Shown piece by piece: positions 22,530-34,824 of a DNA stretch of 64,000 nt (the first letter of the stretch is position 1; every line of letters begins with the position of its first letter). The translations under genes and the position numbers were made by a program. The DNA comes from an uncultured SAR86 cluster bacterium (GTDB taxonomy: Bacteria; Pseudomonadota; Gammaproteobacteria; Magnimaribacterales; AG-339-G14): positions 1 through 64,000 of the forward strand of contig CACILL010000003.1 in NCBI GenBank assembly GCA_902587545.1, in the 5' to 3' direction. The notes below the pieces were generated by a model, which worked only from the letters and a program-made list of their open reading frames with translations, had not been told where the DNA came from and did not search any database.

Positions 22530-25500
22530 ATGCTAGATTCAAGTTTTTTAAAAATACTTCTTTTTACTTTAGTTCTATCCTCTTGTGGGGGAGGTAATAA
22601 CTCTGCCACGCCTCCAAGTGAAGGTTCTTTCGTGAGTCAACCGAAATCAATTAATGGTCTGGTAGTTGATGGATACATCAGAAATGCTGATGTTTGGATC
22701 GAAACTACAAACGATTTTTCAAATATTGGAGAAATAAAGACATCTTCTAACATACAAGGTAGATTTAGCTTAACAACAAGCCTCACTGACTACAGAGTTC
22801 AGTCCTCTGGCGGCATTGATCTAGATACAAACAATAGTTTAGAAGGTTTGATTTTAATTAATCACAAGATAGATGAACTTGCATCTTCTAATACTGCTCA
22901 GAATTTTATTATTTCGCCATTAACGACCGCAGATTTTTTTCTTTCAGAATCTCTAAATAAACTATCCAACCCAATAACAACAACCATAAATGACCTTCTG
23001 GGCTTAGATCAAAACTTAAACGTAAATACTGTTGATCATGTAGATAGTTTGAAGGATGGATTTGTGTATGCTGAAGCTTATGAAAGAGCTAATCAACTGA
23101 CCTCTCTTTCACTATCTTTTACAAGATTAGTCAATAATTTAAGTACTTCTAACATTAATAGCAGTGAAATTTTCCAAGTAATCTTAGATCGAATGGTTGC
23201 AATTTATCAAAGTTCTCAAAATGAAGTAAGTATAGAATCCCCAGCCTTCATAGATGCTTTGGTTGATGATGTAAATCTTAAATTTTCTCTTTCTTTGGAA
23301 AATGAAATTAAGACGAAAGTAAAAAATATGTATAAAGCTTTCATACCTTTGATACAAGTTAAGCCTAACTTAGCAGCTACACATGGTTTATTTTATTTTG
23401 CTACCAATACTTTTTTTAATGATCTTGTTTTAGTTGCATCCAATAATGATCAAGAAAATATTTATTCCAGATATAGTCTTGATCTAATCACTTATATTTC
23501 AGAGATATCTGGACAAACAGAATCAAATTTAGCTTTTTCTATAAAAGCTAATTCTGACTTGGTTTCTTCTTTTGAAGATCAGACTTTCAATATAAACGTT
23601 TTGGAAAACGACGATTTTGATAGTCAATCAAGTTATAACATTTTATTTACACAGCCTGCCAATGGAACAATAAGTAAGGATAATTTGAATATTTTGGTTT
23701 ATCAGCCAAATGCAAATTTCAATGGCAACGATTCCTTTTCATATACTCTTGAACAAGGTTCTTTAAGCTCTACCACATCTGTAAATATCTCGGTTCGACC
23801 ATTACCTGATGCTCCAATCATTTCAATATCATCAACTGAGATAACAATTCCAGAAAATCAAATTAATGTTGTAGATATAGTAGCCAGTGATGCTGATGGT
23901 GATCCTCTTAGCTACAGTTTGTCAGGAACTGATTCTGCCTATTTTAGTATTTCTAGTTCAGGAGAGTTATCATTTATAAATCCTCCAGATTATGAAACCA
24001 AGTCTTCTTTTGAAGTGACAGTCTCAGTGAGTGATGGAGCTTTATCCGATAGCAAAGATTTAGTCATAAATATTTCTAATGTTTTATACGAAGTTGATCT
24101 TTTGGTCTATTACGCCCCTGATATGTTATCTGAATACAGCTCAGAAAATGGAGTTGAAACTAGAGTTTTATATCTGATTGAATCTGCAAATAATGCCTTA
24201 AAGAGGAGCGAGTCAGAGGTTCAGTTCAGTTTGCTAAAACTTTTGCCCTATGATGTTGATGTAAGTAACCAATCAGGAAATACAATTTTTTCTTCTCTTC
24301 TTGGTAGAGAAAAAATTAAAAAAGATCAAATCATGTATGGAGCTGATTATTTTATTCTTGTTTCAAGATGGGATTCTTCAAAGGGACAGACTGGGGGAAC
24401 AGCTTCAATTGATTTAACAATAGATAATTTAACCGATTGGGATGCAGCCCATGGATATTTATCAGCTTGGTCTGTTGATCCCAATTGGTCAGAACCGGGA
24501 TGCAATCCATGCTTTCCTGACAAAGTCTTTGCTCATGAATTAGGACACAATTTAGGTTCAGGGCACTGGCCAGGGGAAACTGGACAATCTTATGCCTATG
24601 GTCATAGGGTTGATGGAAATACTGATGGCGACTTCACAGATAGTTTCGACTGGGGAACTGTCATGAGTTATAACGATATCTCACCCGATTATTTTTCAAA
24701 TCCAAACGTGACATGTAAAAACGGCCTAGCTTGCGGAGTAGTTAATGTTAGCGACAATACCAGGTGGTATAACAACTTAGGAACAAGATTTTCTAGTATT
24801 TTACCAGCGAGCTCTTTAGACAATTCAAATACCTCGAATAAAATCAACATTAAAAACTTCTTTCCAAAAATTTCAGGAGGCATTTCTACTTTTTCAAATG
24901 CAGGCTCTACACGAATTTTCCAAGTTACTGAGTTTTCCGATGTTGATATAAATGGCGAGATTTATAAAAGTTTTAAATGGGAAAATTCATCTAACGGGAA
25001 CCCTAAGATGGCTTATCATTTTTATGAAAAGGATAACAAATACTTTATAAACCGAACTGATTACGAGGCAGGTTATAAGTTTTCCAATCAAGATGAATAC
25101 ACTCTTTATAACAATAACAATTTATGTGTTTTCTTTGATTCGTTTCAAAGTGTAGGTAATTATCTAGCAAGAGATTGCAGCAACGCACACTATGGAGACC
25201 CTCCAGCTTATAATGATGTTTTTCATTTCAACCATTTCATAAAAAGTGAAAATATAAGCGTTCCGTATGGCAGCTTCGATACGGTTAAATATGTTTTTAC
25301 AATTTGGGATAATAATAATAGTCCCTACAGTAATACCCCTTATCTAATGCATAGCATTTTTTGGATGAGTCCAACAATGGGCGTTGTTCAGTATCAAGAT
25401 CATTTAGGAAGAATATGGAAACTGGAAAGTGCTGATTCAGATGGAGATGGCATTGATAACAAATCGGATAATGATGATGATAATGATGGCGTATTGGATA

Positions 25501-25568
25501 CTTCCGACGCCTTTAAACTAGATCCAACTTCTTCTGTAGATTCTAATTTAGACGGTATTCCAGATTAG
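22530..25568 (+). CDS. Large lipoprotein with metalloprotease and Ca-binding repeats
   Basis: A 1012-residue secreted lipoprotein (lipobox LSSCGGG, C19). Regions in order: a marine-type N-terminal domain with INGLVVDGYIRNADVW; helices to about residue 330; a cadherin-like/Ig-type repeat (about 350-425, LENDDFDS and NGNDSFSYTL); a cadherin domain (about 430-520, ASDADGDPLSYSL); a metzincin-type protease domain with zinc site HELGHNLGSGH (H669-H679) and a MSYND methionine turn; and a C-terminal thrombospondin type-3-like Asp-rich segment from about 968 (DSDGDGIDN). It probably digests extracellular protein from the cell surface. The last repeat stops abruptly at the C-terminus. Confidence 0.85.
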   Translation: MLDSSFLKILLFTLVLSSCGGGNNSATPPSEGSFVSQPKSINGLVVDGYIRNADVWIETTNDFSNIGEIKTSSNIQGRFSLTTSLTDYRVQSSGGIDLDTNNSLEGLILINHKIDELASSNTAQNFIISPLTTADFFLSESLNKLSNPITTTINDLLGLDQNLNVNTVDHVDSLKDGFVYAEAYERANQLTSLSLSFTRLVNNLSTSNINSSEIFQVILDRMVAIYQSSQNEVSIESPAFIDALVDDVNLKFSLSLENEIKTKVKNMYKAFIPLIQVKPNLAATHGLFYFATNTFFNDLVLVASNNDQENIYSRYSLDLITYISEISGQTESNLAFSIKANSDLVSSFEDQTFNINVLENDDFDSQSSYNILFTQPANGTISKDNLNILVYQPNANFNGNDSFSYTLEQGSLSSTTSVNISVRPLPDAPIISISSTEITIPENQINVVDIVASDADGDPLSYSLSGTDSAYFSISSSGELSFINPPDYETKSSFEVTVSVSDGALSDSKDLVINISNVLYEVDLLVYYAPDMLSEYSSENGVETRVLYLIESANNALKRSESEVQFSLLKLLPYDVDVSNQSGNTIFSSLLGREKIKKDQIMYGADYFILVSRWDSSKGQTGGTASIDLTIDNLTDWDAAHGYLSAWSVDPNWSEPGCNPCFPDKVFAHELGHNLGSGHWPGETGQSYAYGHRVDGNTDGDFTDSFDWGTVMSYNDISPDYFSNPNVTCKNGLACGVVNVSDNTRWYNNLGTRFSSILPASSLDNSNTSNKINIKNFFPKISGGISTFSNAGSTRIFQVTEFSDVDINGEIYKSFKWENSSNGNPKMAYHFYEKDNKYFINRTDYEAGYKFSNQDEYTLYNNNNLCVFFDSFQSVGNYLARDCSNAHYGDPPAYNDVFHFNHFIKSENISVPYGSFDTVKYVFTIWDNNNSPYSNTPYLMHSIFWMSPTMGVVQYQDHLGRIWKLESADSDGDGIDNKSDNDDDNDGVLDTSDAFKLDPTSSVDSNLDGIPD

Positions 25569-25572
25569 ACTG

Positions 25573-26154
25573 TTATTCTTGTCTTGTTGAATAGTCTTCT
25601 TCGCTAAATTGAGGTATCACCAGACCTGCTTCGGCAGTATTTACTAAGTAGGTCATTTTAGAATCCCTTTTTAAAAGGAAAACTTTTTCATTTATATGAA
25701 ATTTACCAAACGCAAGTTCCTCGCCAATTACAACGAAGGATTCATTTTCTTCTGCTTGCGAATAAGTTTTTACAATTTTGTTTTTTGAAGATTTTTCTAC
25801 TGATTTAATTTCTTCCTGAAAAATATTTCCAAAAAGATTTATATTTAAAATATCACCCGGAATAATATCCTGAAATGATTCTTCAAAGTTATTTACTTTT
25901 TTAAAAGCAGGGCCGTTGATCGCAGAAATTTCAATCTCACTTGTATTAAATTGCCCTAAATCTAGGTAAATGTTTTTTTTTGATATTCTATTACTTAAAG
26001 AAGTTAAATCAGTTAATTTATTTTGCAATTCTGTTTTATCCTGCTTGATTTCTAGAATTTCTTGATCATTTTTTTTATAAAAATTTTTTTCGTATATATA
26101 AAAATATAAAATAAAAATTATTAGTATTGAAAGAAGGCTAATTATTAATCTCAT
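25573..26154 (-). CDS. Membrane-anchored protein, unknown
   Basis: I do not recognise this family. The 193 residues have one N-terminal membrane helix (about 3-21), a short coiled-coil (about 30-55) and a beta-rich C-terminal region with a hydrophobic GDILNINLFGN stretch. It may be periplasmic. It is convergent with the lipoprotein gene (4-base gap) and divergent from the glycosyltransferase, with an AT-rich inverted repeat between. Confidence 0.6.
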   Translation of the reverse strand: MRLIISLLSILIIFILYFYIYEKNFYKKNDQEILEIKQDKTELQNKLTDLTSLSNRISKKNIYLDLGQFNTSEIEISAINGPAFKKVNNFEESFQDIIPGDILNINLFGNIFQEEIKSVEKSSKNKIVKTYSQAEENESFVVIGEELAFGKFHINEKVFLLKRDSKMTYLVNTAEAGLVIPQFSEEDYSTRQE

Positions 26155-26223: not shown

Positions 26224-27285
26224 GTGATTAATCTCGAGAACATAGAGCTGATAATTGGAAACTCTGGAAGAAATTTTTCTGGAGGAACTTCCATTACGAT
26301 TCAATTATTGGATTATCAAGAAAAAGAAATGAATCTAGCTATATTGGGATCAAGATTTATTCCAGAGCATTTTACGACTTTAAATTATTTACAATTTCTC
26401 TTGCTTACTAGAACAAAATTACCTAGTGGCAAGTTAAGAGTTTTCTACACGAGAAAAAATAATGAAATGATTCAAGGCCTGATTGCAAAGTATATATTTC
26501 GTTCAAAAATTAAAATTATTTTTTCTTCATCTGCTCAAAGAAATCATACTAAATTTACCAAATGGCTGATGTCCAAAATGGACAGCGTCGTTTCAACGTC
26601 TAGGAAGGCAGGAAGCTATCTTGATAAGGAGCCTGATAAAATAATTTCTCATGGCATAGATCTCAATAGATTCTCTCTACCTGAAGATAAAGATAAAGCT
26701 TGGCAAGCCTTGGGATTTCCAGGGTCTATAGGAATTGGAATTTTTGGGAGAGTTAGATATTCAAAAGGTATAGATATTTTGGTTGATGCAGCTTTAAAGG
26801 TTTTACCGAAACATCCAAAAGCTACAGTAATAATTTGTGGAGAGATTCAGTTAGAAGATCAGACTTATAAAAATAACATGTTAAGAAAAATAACTGATGC
26901 GAACTTAGAAAAAAGAATATTATTTCTCGGTAAGAAGCCTTTTGAAGATTTACCTAAACTATTTAAAGGCATGTCAGTTGTTGCGGCATTAAGTAGAAAT
27001 GAGGGATATGGTCTCACTCCACTAGAAGGTATGGCATCTGGCGCAGCTGTACTAACCAGCTCAGAAGGCGTCTGGGACGAGTTGGTCAGAGATGGGATCG
27101 ATGGATATGTAGTAAAAACAAATGATGTTTTTCAAACTTCAGAAAGATTAAATACATTAATAGAAAATAGTTCTAAAACGAAAATCATGGGCGAAAATGC
27201 TGCAAAATATATTTCAGAAAATTTTTCTGTTGAAAAAGAAGCGGAACAAATTATTCAACATATTAGATATGTACAAAATGTATAA
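26224..27285 (+). CDS. Glycosyltransferase family 4-type protein
   Basis: GT-B fold glycosyltransferase of 353 residues. The N-terminal domain carries a SGGTSITIQLL stretch; the C-terminal domain has GIFGRVRYSKGIDILVDA (about residue 172), CGEIQLEDQ, and the nucleotide-sugar motif ALSRNEGYGLTPLEGMASGAAVLTS (E-x7-E, about 258-282). It transfers a sugar to a lipid or glycan, probably for lipopolysaccharide. The start is GTG 26224; no strong ribosome site is visible. The stop overlaps the next gene by 8 bases. Confidence 0.85.
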   Translation: MINLENIELIIGNSGRNFSGGTSITIQLLDYQEKEMNLAILGSRFIPEHFTTLNYLQFLLLTRTKLPSGKLRVFYTRKNNEMIQGLIAKYIFRSKIKIIFSSSAQRNHTKFTKWLMSKMDSVVSTSRKAGSYLDKEPDKIISHGIDLNRFSLPEDKDKAWQALGFPGSIGIGIFGRVRYSKGIDILVDAALKVLPKHPKATVIICGEIQLEDQTYKNNMLRKITDANLEKRILFLGKKPFEDLPKLFKGMSVVAALSRNEGYGLTPLEGMASGAAVLTSSEGVWDELVRDGIDGYVVKTNDVFQTSERLNTLIENSSKTKIMGENAAKYISENFSVEKEAEQIIQHIRYVQNV

Positions 27286-28537
27286 AAACTTAAAATTTAT
27301 TTTTTTTCTTTTCTTCTTCCACTTTTCATGGAGTTTTTCAACAGATTTAGATAATTCTACTAGTCATTTAAAAACTATCATCTTAGGCGCAGGTTGTTTT
27401 TGGAGCGTTGAAAAGAAGTTCCAAGAAACATATGGGGTTATAGATGTTCAATCTGGATATGCAGATGGTAAAAATATAAAACCCATTTATAAGGAAATCA
27501 TCAAAAGAGAAAATAGATTTAATCCAAATAATTATGCTGAAGTTGTAAAAGTGTCCTACAACAGTAACAAAACAAGCTTAGAAAATCTTTTAAAGACTTT
27601 TTTTGAAATGCATGATCCCACTCAAGAAAATCGCCAAGGGAACGACATCGGTGTTCAGTATCGTTCATTAATTTTAACTTCGTCAGATGAAGAAATTTCT
27701 ATTTCTAATGAAATAAAAAATGAGTATCAAAATCTTTTAACTAAAGAAGGATTTGGATTGATCAAAACTGACATAAAAAATTTCACGAATTTCTATTTAG
27801 CAGAAAATTATCATCAAGATTATCTAAAAAAGAATCCAAATGGATATTGTCCAGATTATTCAACTGGAGTTGTTTTCTCAAAAAAACCAGAAAAATTTAC
27901 AGACAATAAGAATTTAGTAATTGGAAAAAAAATACTTATTCTTGAGGCAGAAGGCTGTCCTTATTGTTATAAATTAAGACAAAATGTTTTAAATGATTAT
28001 AGAGGCTCCTTAGAAATATCTTATAGAAAATCAGATGAACTAGATAAGCTTGAGTTAAAAACACCCACTTGGGCAACTCCAACAATTTATTTTTTAGAGA
28101 ATGGTAAAGAAGTTTGGTCTCATCAAGGCTATTTATCGAATGAAAAATTCTATAAATCTCTGGGAAAGTTTAAGCTAGGTAAAACAGAAGCTTATGATGT
28201 TGCCTTTAATCAAGGTACAGATCCCACATATTGCAAAGAATATGAGTTATTTAAAAATACACCAGATGGAGTTTTCATTGATAAATTAAGCGGAGCCCCA
28301 CTTTTTAGTACCAAGTACCGTTTTAACTCAAAAACGGGATGGCTTTCATTTACCCAACCTGTAGAAGATTCTGTAACTGAACATATGGATTACAGTTATG
28401 GCATGGTTCGTGTTGAGATAAGATCTAAATCATCAGGCATTCATTTAGGACACGTATTCAATGATGGCCCAAATGGCAAACCAAGGTATTGTATCAATGC
28501 CACTGTGTTAGAATTCATCCCAAATTTAGACACGTAG
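27278..28537 (+). CDS. MsrA-thioredoxin-MsrB fusion, methionine sulfoxide reductase
   Basis: Repairs both S- and R-methionine sulfoxides in the periplasm. A signal peptide (about 1-21) is followed by MsrA (GAGCFW, C40), then a thioredoxin/glutaredoxin-like domain with CPYC (C227 and C230) and a cis-proline ATPTIYF, then MsrB ending HLGHVFNDG and RYCIN (C405). The MsrB zinc cysteine pairs are absent. Neisseria PilB has the order Trx-MsrA-MsrB; here the redox domain is in the middle. The start could also be 27269 (3 residues longer). The end overlaps tRNA-Val by 10 bases. Confidence 0.92.
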   Translation: MYKNLKFIFFLFFFHFSWSFSTDLDNSTSHLKTIILGAGCFWSVEKKFQETYGVIDVQSGYADGKNIKPIYKEIIKRENRFNPNNYAEVVKVSYNSNKTSLENLLKTFFEMHDPTQENRQGNDIGVQYRSLILTSSDEEISISNEIKNEYQNLLTKEGFGLIKTDIKNFTNFYLAENYHQDYLKKNPNGYCPDYSTGVVFSKKPEKFTDNKNLVIGKKILILEAEGCPYCYKLRQNVLNDYRGSLEISYRKSDELDKLELKTPTWATPTIYFLENGKEVWSHQGYLSNEKFYKSLGKFKLGKTEAYDVAFNQGTDPTYCKEYELFKNTPDGVFIDKLSGAPLFSTKYRFNSKTGWLSFTQPVEDSVTEHMDYSYGMVRVEIRSKSSGIHLGHVFNDGPNGKPRYCINATVLEFIPNLDT

Positions 28538-29520: not shown

Positions 29521-29946
29521 ATGAATTTAAAACATTTAGGGCAGATTGCGGACTCTGACAGAAACTCAGAAACGCCTTTGTTTTCTGAGTACGTTCAAGT
29601 AGGTTGGCCAAGTCCTGCAGATGACTACATAGAAAAATCAATTGATTTACATCAACTCTTAATAAAAGCTCCAGCTGCTACTTATCTCGTGAGAGCAAAT
29701 GGAGATTCCATGTTAAATGCAGGAATCAATAATGGCGCAATACTTATAGTTGATAGGAGTCTAGAGCCTAAACATGGTGACATCGTTATCGCTTCCATCG
29801 ATGGTGCTTATGCTTGTAAGCGTCTTCAATTAACACCTAAGGTGGGTTTACTATCAGAGAATATTAAATACCCGCCAATTTTTTTAAAGAACGGAGAAGA
29901 ACTAGACATAATGGGAGTTGTTACTGCGGCAATAAATCAGTTTTAA
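29521..29946 (+). CDS. umuD: UmuD, SOS mutagenesis polymerase V subunit
   Basis: S24-family protein that self-cleaves in response to RecA to give UmuD', the partner of UmuC. Catalytic serine S63 in ANGDSML and lysine K100 in ACKRL. The expected cleavage region reads YVQVGWPSPADDY, giving V27-G28 as the scissile bond where E. coli has Cys-Gly and LexA has Ala-Gly. At 141 residues length is normal. The gene has a perfect LexA box upstream and umuC starts 1 base after its stop. Confidence 0.95.
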   Translation: MNLKHLGQIADSDRNSETPLFSEYVQVGWPSPADDYIEKSIDLHQLLIKAPAATYLVRANGDSMLNAGINNGAILIVDRSLEPKHGDIVIASIDGAYACKRLQLTPKVGLLSENIKYPPIFLKNGEELDIMGVVTAAINQF

Positions 29947-29947
29947 G

Positions 29948-31210
29948 ATGTTTGCTTTAGTAGACTGTAATAGTTTTTACGCGTCGTGCGAAAGAGTTTT
30001 TAGGCCAGATCTTAGAACAAAACCAGTAGTAGTTTTATCAAATAATGATGGCTGCGTCGTTGCTTTAACTAAGGAAGCAAAAAATCTTGGAATCAAGATG
30101 TGCGATCCTTGGTTTAAAATCGAAAAGACATTCAAGCAAAAAGGTGGGATTGCATTCTCATCTAATTATGAACTGTATGGCGATATTTCGTCTCGAATTA
30201 TGAGTATTTTAGAAGAGCTTGCTCCTAAAGTAGAAATTTATAGTATTGATGAAGCATTTCTTGATTTAACCGGTATATCTAATTGCATGGACTTAGAAGA
30301 GTTCGGTAGAGTCTGTCAAAAAAAAATTATGCAGTATACCGGGATGCCAGTTCGTGTCGGTATAGGCCCCACAAAGACCTTGGCCAAGGTTGCAAGTTAT
30401 GGCGCTAAGCGTTATCCAACTACTCAAGGAGTGCTAGACGTCACTGCATTGCACAAAAGAACAAAACTCATGAAGCTAATGCCGGTAAATGAAATATGGG
30501 GAGTAGGACGGAGATTAAATAAGCGCCTTCTTTCCCAAAGAGTTTCAACCGCATTTAATCTAAGCCAAATGGACATAGGACAGGTACGAAAACAATTTAG
30601 TATTATGTTGGTTAATACCATTAGAGAGCTAAGAGGAGAGACTTGTATTCCCTTGGATGATGCACCCGCACCAAAAAAACAAATAGTAGTTAGTCGGACT
30701 TTTGGCAAACGCGTCACAGAACTAGATTTTTTAGAGGAAGCGGTTAGTGATTACGCAGCCCGAGCAGCTGAAAAATTAAGAAAAGAGGGGAAGGCTTGTA
30801 AGAACATTTCTATCTTCATTAGAACCAATCCTTTTAGAAAACAAGATGTCCAGCATAGAGAAATTAGATCAATTTCTCTTTTATATCCAACTAATGACAC
30901 AAGAGACTTGATTAAGTCTGCAAAACTTTTACTAAAGGACTTATATCGAAAAGACTTTAACTACAATAAAGCTGGCATTATGTTGAGTGATTTTTTTGAT
31001 GAAACTGTATATCAACTAGACTTGTTCAAACAAAAAGACAGAAATACTAGAGACTTTAAGATGATGAGCTTAGTCGATCAAATTAACCAAAGTAATTTAG
31101 GACCTGTGAGTTTTCTTGCACAAGGAATTAAAAAAGAATGGTCAATGAAAAGAGAATTACAATCTCCTCGATATACGACCAACTTACAAGATATTCTAGC
31201 GGTTAATTAA
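29948..31210 (+). CDS. umuC: UmuC, catalytic subunit of DNA polymerase V
   Basis: Y-family translesion polymerase. Metal-binding residues are in MFALVDCNSFYASCE at the N-terminus and YSIDEAFLDL (about 99-108). Little-finger and C-terminal domains follow, with a beta-clamp binding motif QLDLF at Q356-F360. At 420 residues it matches UmuC. It is expressed with UmuD under LexA control and bypasses damage such as UV photoproducts. It converges with pyrB. Confidence 0.97.
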   Translation: MFALVDCNSFYASCERVFRPDLRTKPVVVLSNNDGCVVALTKEAKNLGIKMCDPWFKIEKTFKQKGGIAFSSNYELYGDISSRIMSILEELAPKVEIYSIDEAFLDLTGISNCMDLEEFGRVCQKKIMQYTGMPVRVGIGPTKTLAKVASYGAKRYPTTQGVLDVTALHKRTKLMKLMPVNEIWGVGRRLNKRLLSQRVSTAFNLSQMDIGQVRKQFSIMLVNTIRELRGETCIPLDDAPAPKKQIVVSRTFGKRVTELDFLEEAVSDYAARAAEKLRKEGKACKNISIFIRTNPFRKQDVQHREIRSISLLYPTNDTRDLIKSAKLLLKDLYRKDFNYNKAGIMLSDFFDETVYQLDLFKQKDRNTRDFKMMSLVDQINQSNLGPVSFLAQGIKKEWSMKRELQSPRYTTNLQDILAVN

Positions 31211-32811: not shown

Positions 32812-32835
32812 TTAATTCAAGTAATCTTGAATTAA
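32812..32835. terminator. Palindrome at convergent gene ends, possible bidirectional terminator
   Basis: TTAATTCAAG (32812-32821), loop TAAT, CTTGAATTAA (32826-32835): a perfect 10-bp hairpin just past the HNH stop and overlapping the last codons of the opposing DsbD-like gene. It lacks a strong run of U on either strand, so termination would be weak. Its position suits a shared end for both transcripts. Confidence 0.4.
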
Positions 32836-34824
32836 CGATTCGGTTAAGATTTCCGGCAAAATAATTGGTACGCTTTCCTCATCTGGATAATAAATATAAA
32901 GCGGGATGCTAGATCTTCCAAAGCTAGCAAGTTTTTTTGCAATTAATTCATTTTTATTTGTCCAATCTGCCTCTAAGTAAAAGATATTTTTTTTCTCAAA
33001 AAATTTTAGAGTTTCTTCAGTCTTTAGAGCAACTCTTTCATTTACTTTACAAGTAATGCACCAATCAGCTGTGAAATTTAAAAAAACCGGACCTTTTGCT
33101 AAGTTTTTAGCTAACTCCTCATCACTAAAAACATTGCTATCTTGCTGAAGAGAAGCTTTTTGTATTGGCAAAGTAAAGAATAAGGAAACTAAGACTGCAA
33201 GGTAAATAACATTTCTAAATTGCAATCCTATCTTAGAATATATTTTGAGTTGGTTTAACCAATAAAAAAATACAATTAAAGAAATCCCTAAAAGTACTAA
33301 GATAAGCTGAAAAGAATCAATCTGACTACTTAAGACCCATACCAGCCACAAAGCAGTAAGAATCATAGGAAAGGCCATAAACTGCTTAAAAGTTTCCATC
33401 CAAATTCCAGGTCTTGGGAGTAAGGACAGCATACTCGGAAAAATTGATAAAAGAATATATGGCAAAGAAAATCCAATTCCCAAAGAAAGAAAAATTAAAA
33501 AAGATGAAAAGCCTGGCTGGAGGATTGCAAAACCCAGTGCAGAGCCCATAAATGGAGCAGTACAAGGGGTGGCAACAATCACTGCTAGAAAGCCTGTACC
33601 AAAAGAATTCATATAGCTAGGAGTACTAATTCCAGAGGAACCTATACTAAGTAAAGAATTTAAGAAATTAACATCCAACAAAAAGAATCCAGCTAAGAAA
33701 ATAAAGAGGAAAATCAATAAACTTACAACGAGAGGCGACTGGAGTTGATATCCCCATCCAATGTCCATGCCTAATCCTTTTAGAAGAACTACGGAAAGAC
33801 CAATTAAAACGAACATTAAGATTGATCCAGACGAAAAAGCGAAACCATGTAATGAGGTTTGGGCTTTATTTTCAGAGTGATTGATAAAATTTAGAATTTT
33901 CAGAGAGATTACAGGAAAAACGCACGGCATTAAATTCAGTAAAAGGCCACCAATTAAAGAAAATAAAATTGCAGCTGAAAGAGAGATGAATTCTGGATTT
34001 AAGGTTGATTGAGTAGAGATAAAATCAGAAGCTAATTCAATTTCATAATCACCTATATTTGTTTTTAAAATACCACCTGACAAGCTTTCAGCCTTATTCT
34101 TTTCAAGAAGTTTTATATTTAGATTAATTTCATCAAAGTTTTTTTCTAAGTTTTGATTGGATGAGTAATCAATTATATTTTCCTCAAAGGGAAAGAAATA
34201 AGCTTTTTTTATATCAGAACCAATATCACTAAGATTTAGGATAAGTGTTCCACTTTCAATTTTAGAGTTTATTTTTTGCTTTAACCTTTTCGGAATAGTC
34301 GATTTAACTTCGCTAATTAAAATGTTTTTAATTGAAAAATCATTACCGCTTCCTTTGGAAAGTACAAAGTTCACTTTTCCTTCTTGAGGTATACAAACAT
34401 CTGCACATACCAACCATTTTGATTTCACAGAAAATTCATTGATTGGATCAAATTGCTTGGGGAGAGACAGTTTGAAAAGAAGCTTTAACTCATTTGTATA
34501 ACCAAAAGTAGTTAGTGGAGGATAAGGTATCAGTTCAGGAGTAGGCCAAACTGGCTCAGAAATATTAAATCCTTCAGGAAGGTCCCAATTAAAAGATGCA
34601 GGATCTCCTGAATCTCCAGGATTGATCCAATAGGTATGCCAATCTTTATCTAAATTGAATCTTACAACTAAGAAGATTTCACTTTCATTAGCAATAACAT
34701 CTCTTTCAGGGATTACTTCGAAAGATGAATTTGAGGCGACAAACTTGTTTTCTAATAAAGCTTCAGAGCTCAAAAGAATTAACGATAGAAATAACAGGAT
34801 TGGATAATTTCTAAGCCTTGCCAT
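32812..34824 (-). CDS. DsbD/ScsB-like thiol:disulfide interchange protein
   Basis: Moves electrons from cytoplasmic thioredoxin to periplasmic oxidoreductases. A signal peptide (about 1-22) is followed by a long periplasmic N-terminal DsbD-like domain with cysteines in VCADVCIPQ, eight membrane helices carrying LMPCVFPV and ATPCTAPF (the two redox cysteines of the membrane domain), and a C-terminal thioredoxin domain with DWCITCK. At 670 residues it is in the DsbD/ScsB range. It is the probable reductant for CcmG. Its 5' end overlaps the end of the YqgE gene by 14 bases. Confidence 0.9.
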   Translation of the reverse strand: MARLRNYPILLFLSLILLSSEALLENKFVASNSSFEVIPERDVIANESEIFLVVRFNLDKDWHTYWINPGDSGDPASFNWDLPEGFNISEPVWPTPELIPYPPLTTFGYTNELKLLFKLSLPKQFDPINEFSVKSKWLVCADVCIPQEGKVNFVLSKGSGNDFSIKNILISEVKSTIPKRLKQKINSKIESGTLILNLSDIGSDIKKAYFFPFEENIIDYSSNQNLEKNFDEINLNIKLLEKNKAESLSGGILKTNIGDYEIELASDFISTQSTLNPEFISLSAAILFSLIGGLLLNLMPCVFPVISLKILNFINHSENKAQTSLHGFAFSSGSILMFVLIGLSVVLLKGLGMDIGWGYQLQSPLVVSLLIFLFIFLAGFFLLDVNFLNSLLSIGSSGISTPSYMNSFGTGFLAVIVATPCTAPFMGSALGFAILQPGFSSFLIFLSLGIGFSLPYILLSIFPSMLSLLPRPGIWMETFKQFMAFPMILTALWLVWVLSSQIDSFQLILVLLGISLIVFFYWLNQLKIYSKIGLQFRNVIYLAVLVSLFFTLPIQKASLQQDSNVFSDEELAKNLAKGPVFLNFTADWCITCKVNERVALKTEETLKFFEKKNIFYLEADWTNKNELIAKKLASFGRSSIPLYIYYPDEESVPIILPEILTESLIQDYLN

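Follow-up and report, generated by a model that had tools for sequence, protein, structure and literature searches.

What can a thioredoxin domain do when it sits between the two methionine sulfoxide reductases of a single polypeptide? The question is raised by a gene in the window, by which we mean the whole stretch of 64,000 nucleotides analysed here (positions 1 to 64,000 of contig CACILL010000003.1, assembly GCA_902587545.1, from an uncultured SAR86 cluster bacterium); it joins methionine sulfoxide reductase A (MsrA), a thioredoxin (Trx) and methionine sulfoxide reductase B (MsrB) in this order. The source genome amounts to 1.13 Mb in 11 contigs and is 85% complete, and among named organisms its closest relatives are SAR86 cluster bacteria, many of them with AG- isolate labels, which we take to mark single-cell genomes. 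We think it likely that the product is an exported, bifunctional methionine sulfoxide reductase (Msr) with its own central recycling thioredoxin, fed by DsbD, a reading built on what was observed of the domains, the fold of the middle domain, the cysteines, the conservation and the pattern of loss. The gene and its parts are:

27278..28537, + strand: MsrA-Trx-MsrB fusion gene, 419 amino acids plus stop, no internal stop
27278..27337, + strand: probable N-terminal export signal, hydrophobic FIFFLFFFHF at residues 7-16 (sequence and hydrophobicity scan)
27374..27850, + strand: MsrA domain, residues 33-191 (Pfam PMSR), with catalytic C40 in GCFW and resolving-type C191 in GYC
27902..28186, + strand: SoxS-like thioredoxin domain, residues 209-303, with C227-P-Y-C230 and the cis-Pro position P268
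28184..28522, + strand: MsrB domain, residues 303-415 (Pfam SelR), with catalytic C405, an alternative resolving-type C319, and T353 at the usual resolving position

An alternative in-frame ATG upstream, at 27197, would give a product of 446 amino acids. The Pfam matches (PMSR at residues 33-191, E 1.2e-49; Thioredoxin_2 at 218-294, E 5.1e-6, 27.2 bits with the cut-off at 27; SelR at 303-415, E 1.6e-32) agree with an earlier note on this DNA, which had read the order as MsrA-thioredoxin-MsrB with the redox domain in the middle and had correctly named C40, C227, C230 and C405. The fusion has six cysteines, and by sequence all of them are at redox positions, in the pairs C40/C191, C227/C230 and C319/C405; the catalytic and resolving-type roles of the MsrA and MsrB cysteines are our assignment from family knowledge. 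The PMSR match, the catalytic cysteine in GCFW, the resolving-type cysteine and fold matches with Z up to 25 identify the first domain as MsrA, and its columns C40 and C191 are invariant among 44 alignment rows. C319 and C405 are the sole cysteines of the MsrB domain, whose catalytic cysteine lies in RYCIN and which has no CxxC zinc pairs; it is a SelR of the zinc-free kind, and the earlier note was right that the zinc cysteines are missing. That note did not list the hydrophobic N-terminus, C191 or C319. The protein is probably exported to the periplasm, as judged from the hydrophobic N-terminus in the hydrophobicity scan. The best whole-chain structure matches (MsrA plus MsrB) were S. pneumoniae 3e0m, T. 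denticola 5fa9 and H. pylori 7e43.

Modelled alone from 49 aligned copies, the middle domain reached a pLDDT of 95.2 and a pTM of 0.87. C19, C22 and P60 (domain numbering) are invariant in these 49 rows, a set made up of the window's own copy and 48 of 89 segments, the five decayed or deleted copies that lack CxxC having been excluded beforehand. Foldseek gave SoxS as the top match (E 1.3e-5) with thioredoxins next, the best solved relative in a profile search was 3d4t (E 1.7e-7), entitled SoxS of Paracoccus pantotrophus, and VIA-align placed the SoxS entries first (Z 12.7 and 12.6; best rmsd 1.9 over 87 residues). With its CxxC at a helix start and the cis-Pro position P268 before the next strand, the domain is a thioredoxin-fold oxidoreductase; the model and the fold matches exclude the possibility, left standing by the earlier note, of some other fold. 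By sequence and, narrowly, by model, its closest relative among solved structures is the periplasmic thioredoxin SoxS. A full-chain model from 44 sequences (alignment A1, 44 of 57 proteins, with P0001 in place of L001) had a pLDDT of 86.5 and a pTM of 0.55; in this model the single domains are sound and their mutual placement is not.

From these data we infer the location, both activities, the cysteine roles, the in-chain electron transfer and DsbD as donor. MsrA (C40, resolved by C191) would reduce methionine-S-sulfoxide in oxidised envelope proteins, and MsrB (C405, resolved by C319) would do the same for methionine-R-sulfoxide; the Msr disulfides would then be passed to C227/C230 of the central SoxS-like thioredoxin, which would be re-reduced from the cytoplasm via DsbD. 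By its position, the central domain could serve both Msr active sites, as the earlier note proposed. The candidate donor is encoded in the same window:

32812..34824, - strand: DsbD-type transmembrane thiol reductase (DsbD_N, DsbD_TM, Thioredoxin_7), 4.3 kb from the fusion

DsbD would be the natural donor here by analogy, because nDsbD reduces the N-terminal Trx of PilB. Fusion and DsbD were found together in 57 genomes, on the same contig in 40, and 33 of these 40 (the window's own included) have them within 12 kb, at a spacing of 4.3 to 9.3 kb. In genus g1 the spacing is 4281-4290 bp in 13 of the 14 genomes with both, and 6348 bp in G004. This linkage reflects a few inherited neighbourhoods and not 33 independent events. 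DsbD as a tell-tale co-occurring partner was rejected, since it was found in 89 of 101 genomes of relatives irrespective of the fusion.

A long match to the fusion was present in 60 of the same 101 genomes (two copies end at contig ends and one, in G003, is frameshifted) and also in named SAR86 cluster bacterium records; the fusion is therefore neither chance nor an assembly artefact. In 369 genomes drawn from the class, 7 had a match at E <=1e-45: the window's own genome, one genome of the same order, G422, G215 and G262 with domain order and CxxC intact, G152 with a Trx without CxxC, and G308 with MsrA-Trx only. This draw undercounts, as G233 has the MsrA-Trx-MsrB order and missed the 1e-45 threshold. 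Among 398 genomes drawn from the phylum, 3 (one of them the window's own) matched past 1e-60. Order by order, the 1e-60 level was reached in 9/200 genomes of the order of G717 (one of them, G903, being Trx-MsrB only), in 13/197 of the order of G575, in 42/83 of the order of G422 (some partial) and in 48/62 of the order of G152, where the 18 partial matches fetched comprised 8 stand-alone MsrA proteins and 10 full fusions. As far as the sequences go, the MsrA-Trx-MsrB order is recurrent but patchy in the class, in four orders beyond its own. A Rhizobium plasmid match (H6, 93% covered) was rejected as a fusion, its MsrA and MsrB being in separate frames, and the 615-residue frame of L181 was rejected as a four-domain protein, its N-terminus reading by eye as sequence that precedes a lipoprotein-type signal.

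How the dithiol has fared was followed in 136 fusion-type proteins, with identical proteins taken once and trimmed frames below 290 amino acids excluded, a cut that took out the stand-alone MsrAs as well as L091, the Trx-MsrB protein. No alignment included L054 or the pair L022 and L053, two frameshifted versions of the same locus, and L056 and L135 were left out of the trees. CxxC was retained in 131/136 proteins: 92 have CxxC with C319 and 37 have CxxC with T or S at 319, one is MsrA-Trx without MsrB (L056), and one, truncated before C405, has both CxxC and C319 (L135). Three proteins have C319 and no CxxC (L059, L093, L094), and in two the Trx is deleted and C319 is present (L173, L174); no MsrB-bearing protein among the 136 lacks both CxxC and C319. 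By export signal, called with a crude hydrophobicity threshold, CxxC was retained in all 99 proteins with a detected signal, and among the 37 without one it was lost in 5 and retained in 32. L155 (at a contig edge) and L156 (with a lipoprotein-type signal just under the threshold) were scored signal-less and probably have one, and L135 was scored signal-bearing, probably wrongly. All dithiol losses fall among proteins without a detected signal, yet a missing signal does not force the loss.

To judge from the sequences and trees, the five losses are two independent events. One is the trio L059, L093 and L094, without detected export signal in the hydrophobicity scan. In a tree built on the MsrA plus MsrB columns, the C319 proteins separate from the T/S319 proteins and the trio nests in the T/S319 clade, the MsrA tree also puts it inside that clade, and in the MsrB-only tree it branches beside the clade and not within it. 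Compared with L095 and L096, the trio has 23-27% identity in Trx, 66-74% in MsrA and 63-68% in MsrB; the corresponding values are 68%, 76% and 89% for L095 versus L096, and 66%, 73% and 84% for L082 versus L096. The trio thus appears to carry, beside a decayed Trx, a C319 in MsrB that its relatives lack, and this is one event. That C319 was "regained" here is weakened as an account, the placement in the MsrB-only tree leaving a replacement of MsrB from outside possible. The other event is seen in L173 and L174, which belong to two genomes in G422's genus: the Trx has been cleanly deleted, and what remains is an MsrA-MsrB protein with C319 and no detected export signal; in that order, a signal was detected in hardly any copy.

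Two shortened forms bear on which domain the thioredoxin serves. L056 (G308) is MsrA-Trx without MsrB and L091 (G903) is Trx-MsrB without MsrA; each starts with a hydrophobic N-terminus, and their loci of 3.7-3.8 kb gave no further profile match to MsrA, Trx or MsrB. The Trx can therefore be retained beside one Msr domain or the other, in keeping with a service to both. For comparison, a control set of 30 MsrB domains was assembled from L003, L179 and 28 loci that were new among the top-scoring matches in 143 genomes. An intact fusion (L181) and a decayed one (L183) are part of it. Both resolving positions lack cysteine in 24/30, 5/30 have the usual one (353) and 1/30 has C319, so a one-cysteine MsrB is ordinary and C319 is the unusual state. 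Just one or two cysteines are present in 27/30 control domains and in PilB MsrB; judged by sequence, an MsrB without zinc is ordinary. The window's own genome also has a stand-alone MsrA and a zinc-type MsrB (L002, L003), neither with a hydrophobic N-terminus, and this zinc-type MsrB has no cysteine at either resolving position.

Several observations weigh against an exported, self-recycling reductase with a SoxS-like thioredoxin fed by DsbD. Ordinary thioredoxins trail the SoxS entries by less than 1 Z in VIA-align, and a full-chain pTM of 0.55 gives no usable inter-domain geometry for C227/C230 relative to C40/C405. DsbD occurs alike in relatives with and without the fusion, and in 7 of the 40 same-contig genomes the two are 99-142 kb apart. 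Among the 32 signal-less fusions that retain CxxC, 29 (all with C319) come from the order of G422, and the other 3 have T at 319, two of them probably with a signal after all; the Trx is therefore not for the periplasm alone. Moreover, 7/30 control domains belong to MsrA-MsrB fusions without Trx and without an MsrB resolving cysteine (L189, L192, L195, L196, L198, L200 and L201; linker of 49-60 residues), at least five of which (L189, L192, L195, L196, L201) have a clear hydrophobic N-terminus, that of L198 being weaker and L200 being cut by a contig end. An exported MsrAB can therefore dispense with both, and an in-chain Trx is optional and not required. The proposal that an MsrB without C319 must depend on an in-chain Trx was weakened by the 24 MsrB domains with neither resolving cysteine, these seven fusions among them.

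These data also bear on what else the central domain might do. It may recycle one Msr domain in chain, most likely MsrB, with MsrA reduced by other molecules as in PilB, and this is a serious possibility although we lean slightly against it: the Trx-MsrB of G903 looks exported and its 3.7-kb locus (L091) has no MsrA, and in the sole decay event the cysteine change lies in MsrB (C319), but the exported-looking MsrA-Trx of G308, with no further fusion match in its locus, points to service of MsrA too, and the Trx here adjoins both Msr domains in sequence whereas that of PilB is not adjacent to MsrB. A central Trx that is in-chain donor for both Msr sites and, within this family, also exchangeable with the MsrB's own resolving cysteine seems to us rather unlikely on the sequences at hand. 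If true, the full fusion and its MsrA-Trx, Trx-MsrB, decayed and deleted relatives would together show, as a natural series, an in-chain donor being retained, replaced by a local cysteine or lost.

We consider it improbable that the middle domain works as a general thiol reductase carried along with the Msr domains, perhaps acting, like SoxS, on sulfur or other disulfides. Its closest solved relative is SoxS, for which PMC11582611 names SoxYZ as target, and exported-looking MsrA-MsrB fusions without Trx exist; against this stand the fixed domain order across five orders, the junction of a few residues to MsrB, and the coincidence of Trx loss with the MsrB cysteine change in the decay event. 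A structural linker with a dispensable CxxC would account for the three homologues without CxxC and the two without the whole domain that keep MsrA and MsrB, but with CxxC in 131/136 and fast decay of the domain where it is lost, we find such a role very improbable. The exported reductase with a central recycling thioredoxin and DsbD as donor is the reading we retain; the fusion is well conserved and, in outline, its function is clear.

Directly upstream of the fusion lies one further gene:

26224..27285, + strand: GT4-type glycosyltransferase, its end overlapping the fusion start by 8 nt

From this overlap, the two are possibly translated together; at locus L022, both are broken into several frames. 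A 193-residue protein at 25573-26154 (- strand) has no Pfam match, and a similar frame was seen by eye in L022. Positions 22530-25568 (+ strand) encode a putative exported protein of 1012 amino acids with Big_9/cadherin-like domains and a reprolysin-like metalloprotease domain (HELGHNLGSGHW), and at 29521-31210 (+ strand) an S24-peptidase gene and an impB/mucB/samB-family gene are adjacent, a UmuD/UmuC-like pair in a small genome.

A donor between both Msr domains offers a direct natural test of whether domain order sets which Msr domain an in-chain Trx serves, and donor loss together with a different MsrB cysteine pattern gives a natural experiment within the family that mutations can reproduce. 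What makes the fusion of particular interest is the SoxS-like donor, the place of this donor in the middle of the chain, and a single event in which the donor dithiol was exchanged for an MsrB cysteine. The fusion also points to a way in which a bacterium of the open ocean with a small genome could provide its periplasm with oxidised-methionine repair through a single gene.

Among known systems, the MsrAB fusions 3e0m, 5fa9 and 7e43 share MsrA and MsrB and differ by having no Trx and a short linker, and SoxS of Paracoccus pantotrophus (3d4t, 3dml), the closest solved relative of the middle domain in sequence and fold, differs in being a stand-alone protein that works in sulfur oxidation. The MsrB domain and 3hcj (Xanthomonas MsrB) align over equal spans (7-115 versus 26-134), with compensating gaps; C319 as the counterpart of Cys31, the alternative resolving cysteine of Xanthomonas MsrB, is a lead only. 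Against NF010625 (the NCBIfam MsrA/MsrB model of 521 positions, which we take to be a PilB-type model), the fusion scores 263.3 with a cut-off of 522. The string "MSRA-Trx-MSRB" was found in the open-access literature in PMC6211008 (2018) only, where a single sentence lists it among archaeal fusion proteins; the order so named is the same as here. The novelty that the earlier note suggested for the order is not supported, as that source had named it for archaea and four further orders of the class have it too. Judged by titles and the beginnings of abstracts, no open-access paper on a bacterial MsrA-Trx-MsrB family was found, and "SAR86" with "methionine sulfoxide reductase" gave 0 open-access papers. 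PilB of Neisseria has the same three domain kinds, in-chain recycling of Msr by Trx, export and DsbD as donor, features that for our fusion are proposed partly by analogy; according to PMC6210582, the Trx at its N-terminus reduces MsrB in chain and efficiently, and is itself reduced by nDsbD, while MsrA is served by Trx only between molecules, for a spatial reason left open. Its order is Trx-MsrA-MsrB, whereas our fusion has no Trx before MsrA and carries it between MsrA and MsrB, so that the domain positions bear out the difference from PilB that the earlier note had stressed. The PilB Trx has a TlpA fold with WCPLC according to the same paper, in contrast to the SoxS-like Trx with CPYC found here. 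The PilB MsrB, in its alignment with the fusion, has a cysteine before GW (SGCGW) where the fusion has T353, with C319 instead. The fusion thus belongs to a known kind, the self-recycling Msr fusions, in a domain order that had been named before.
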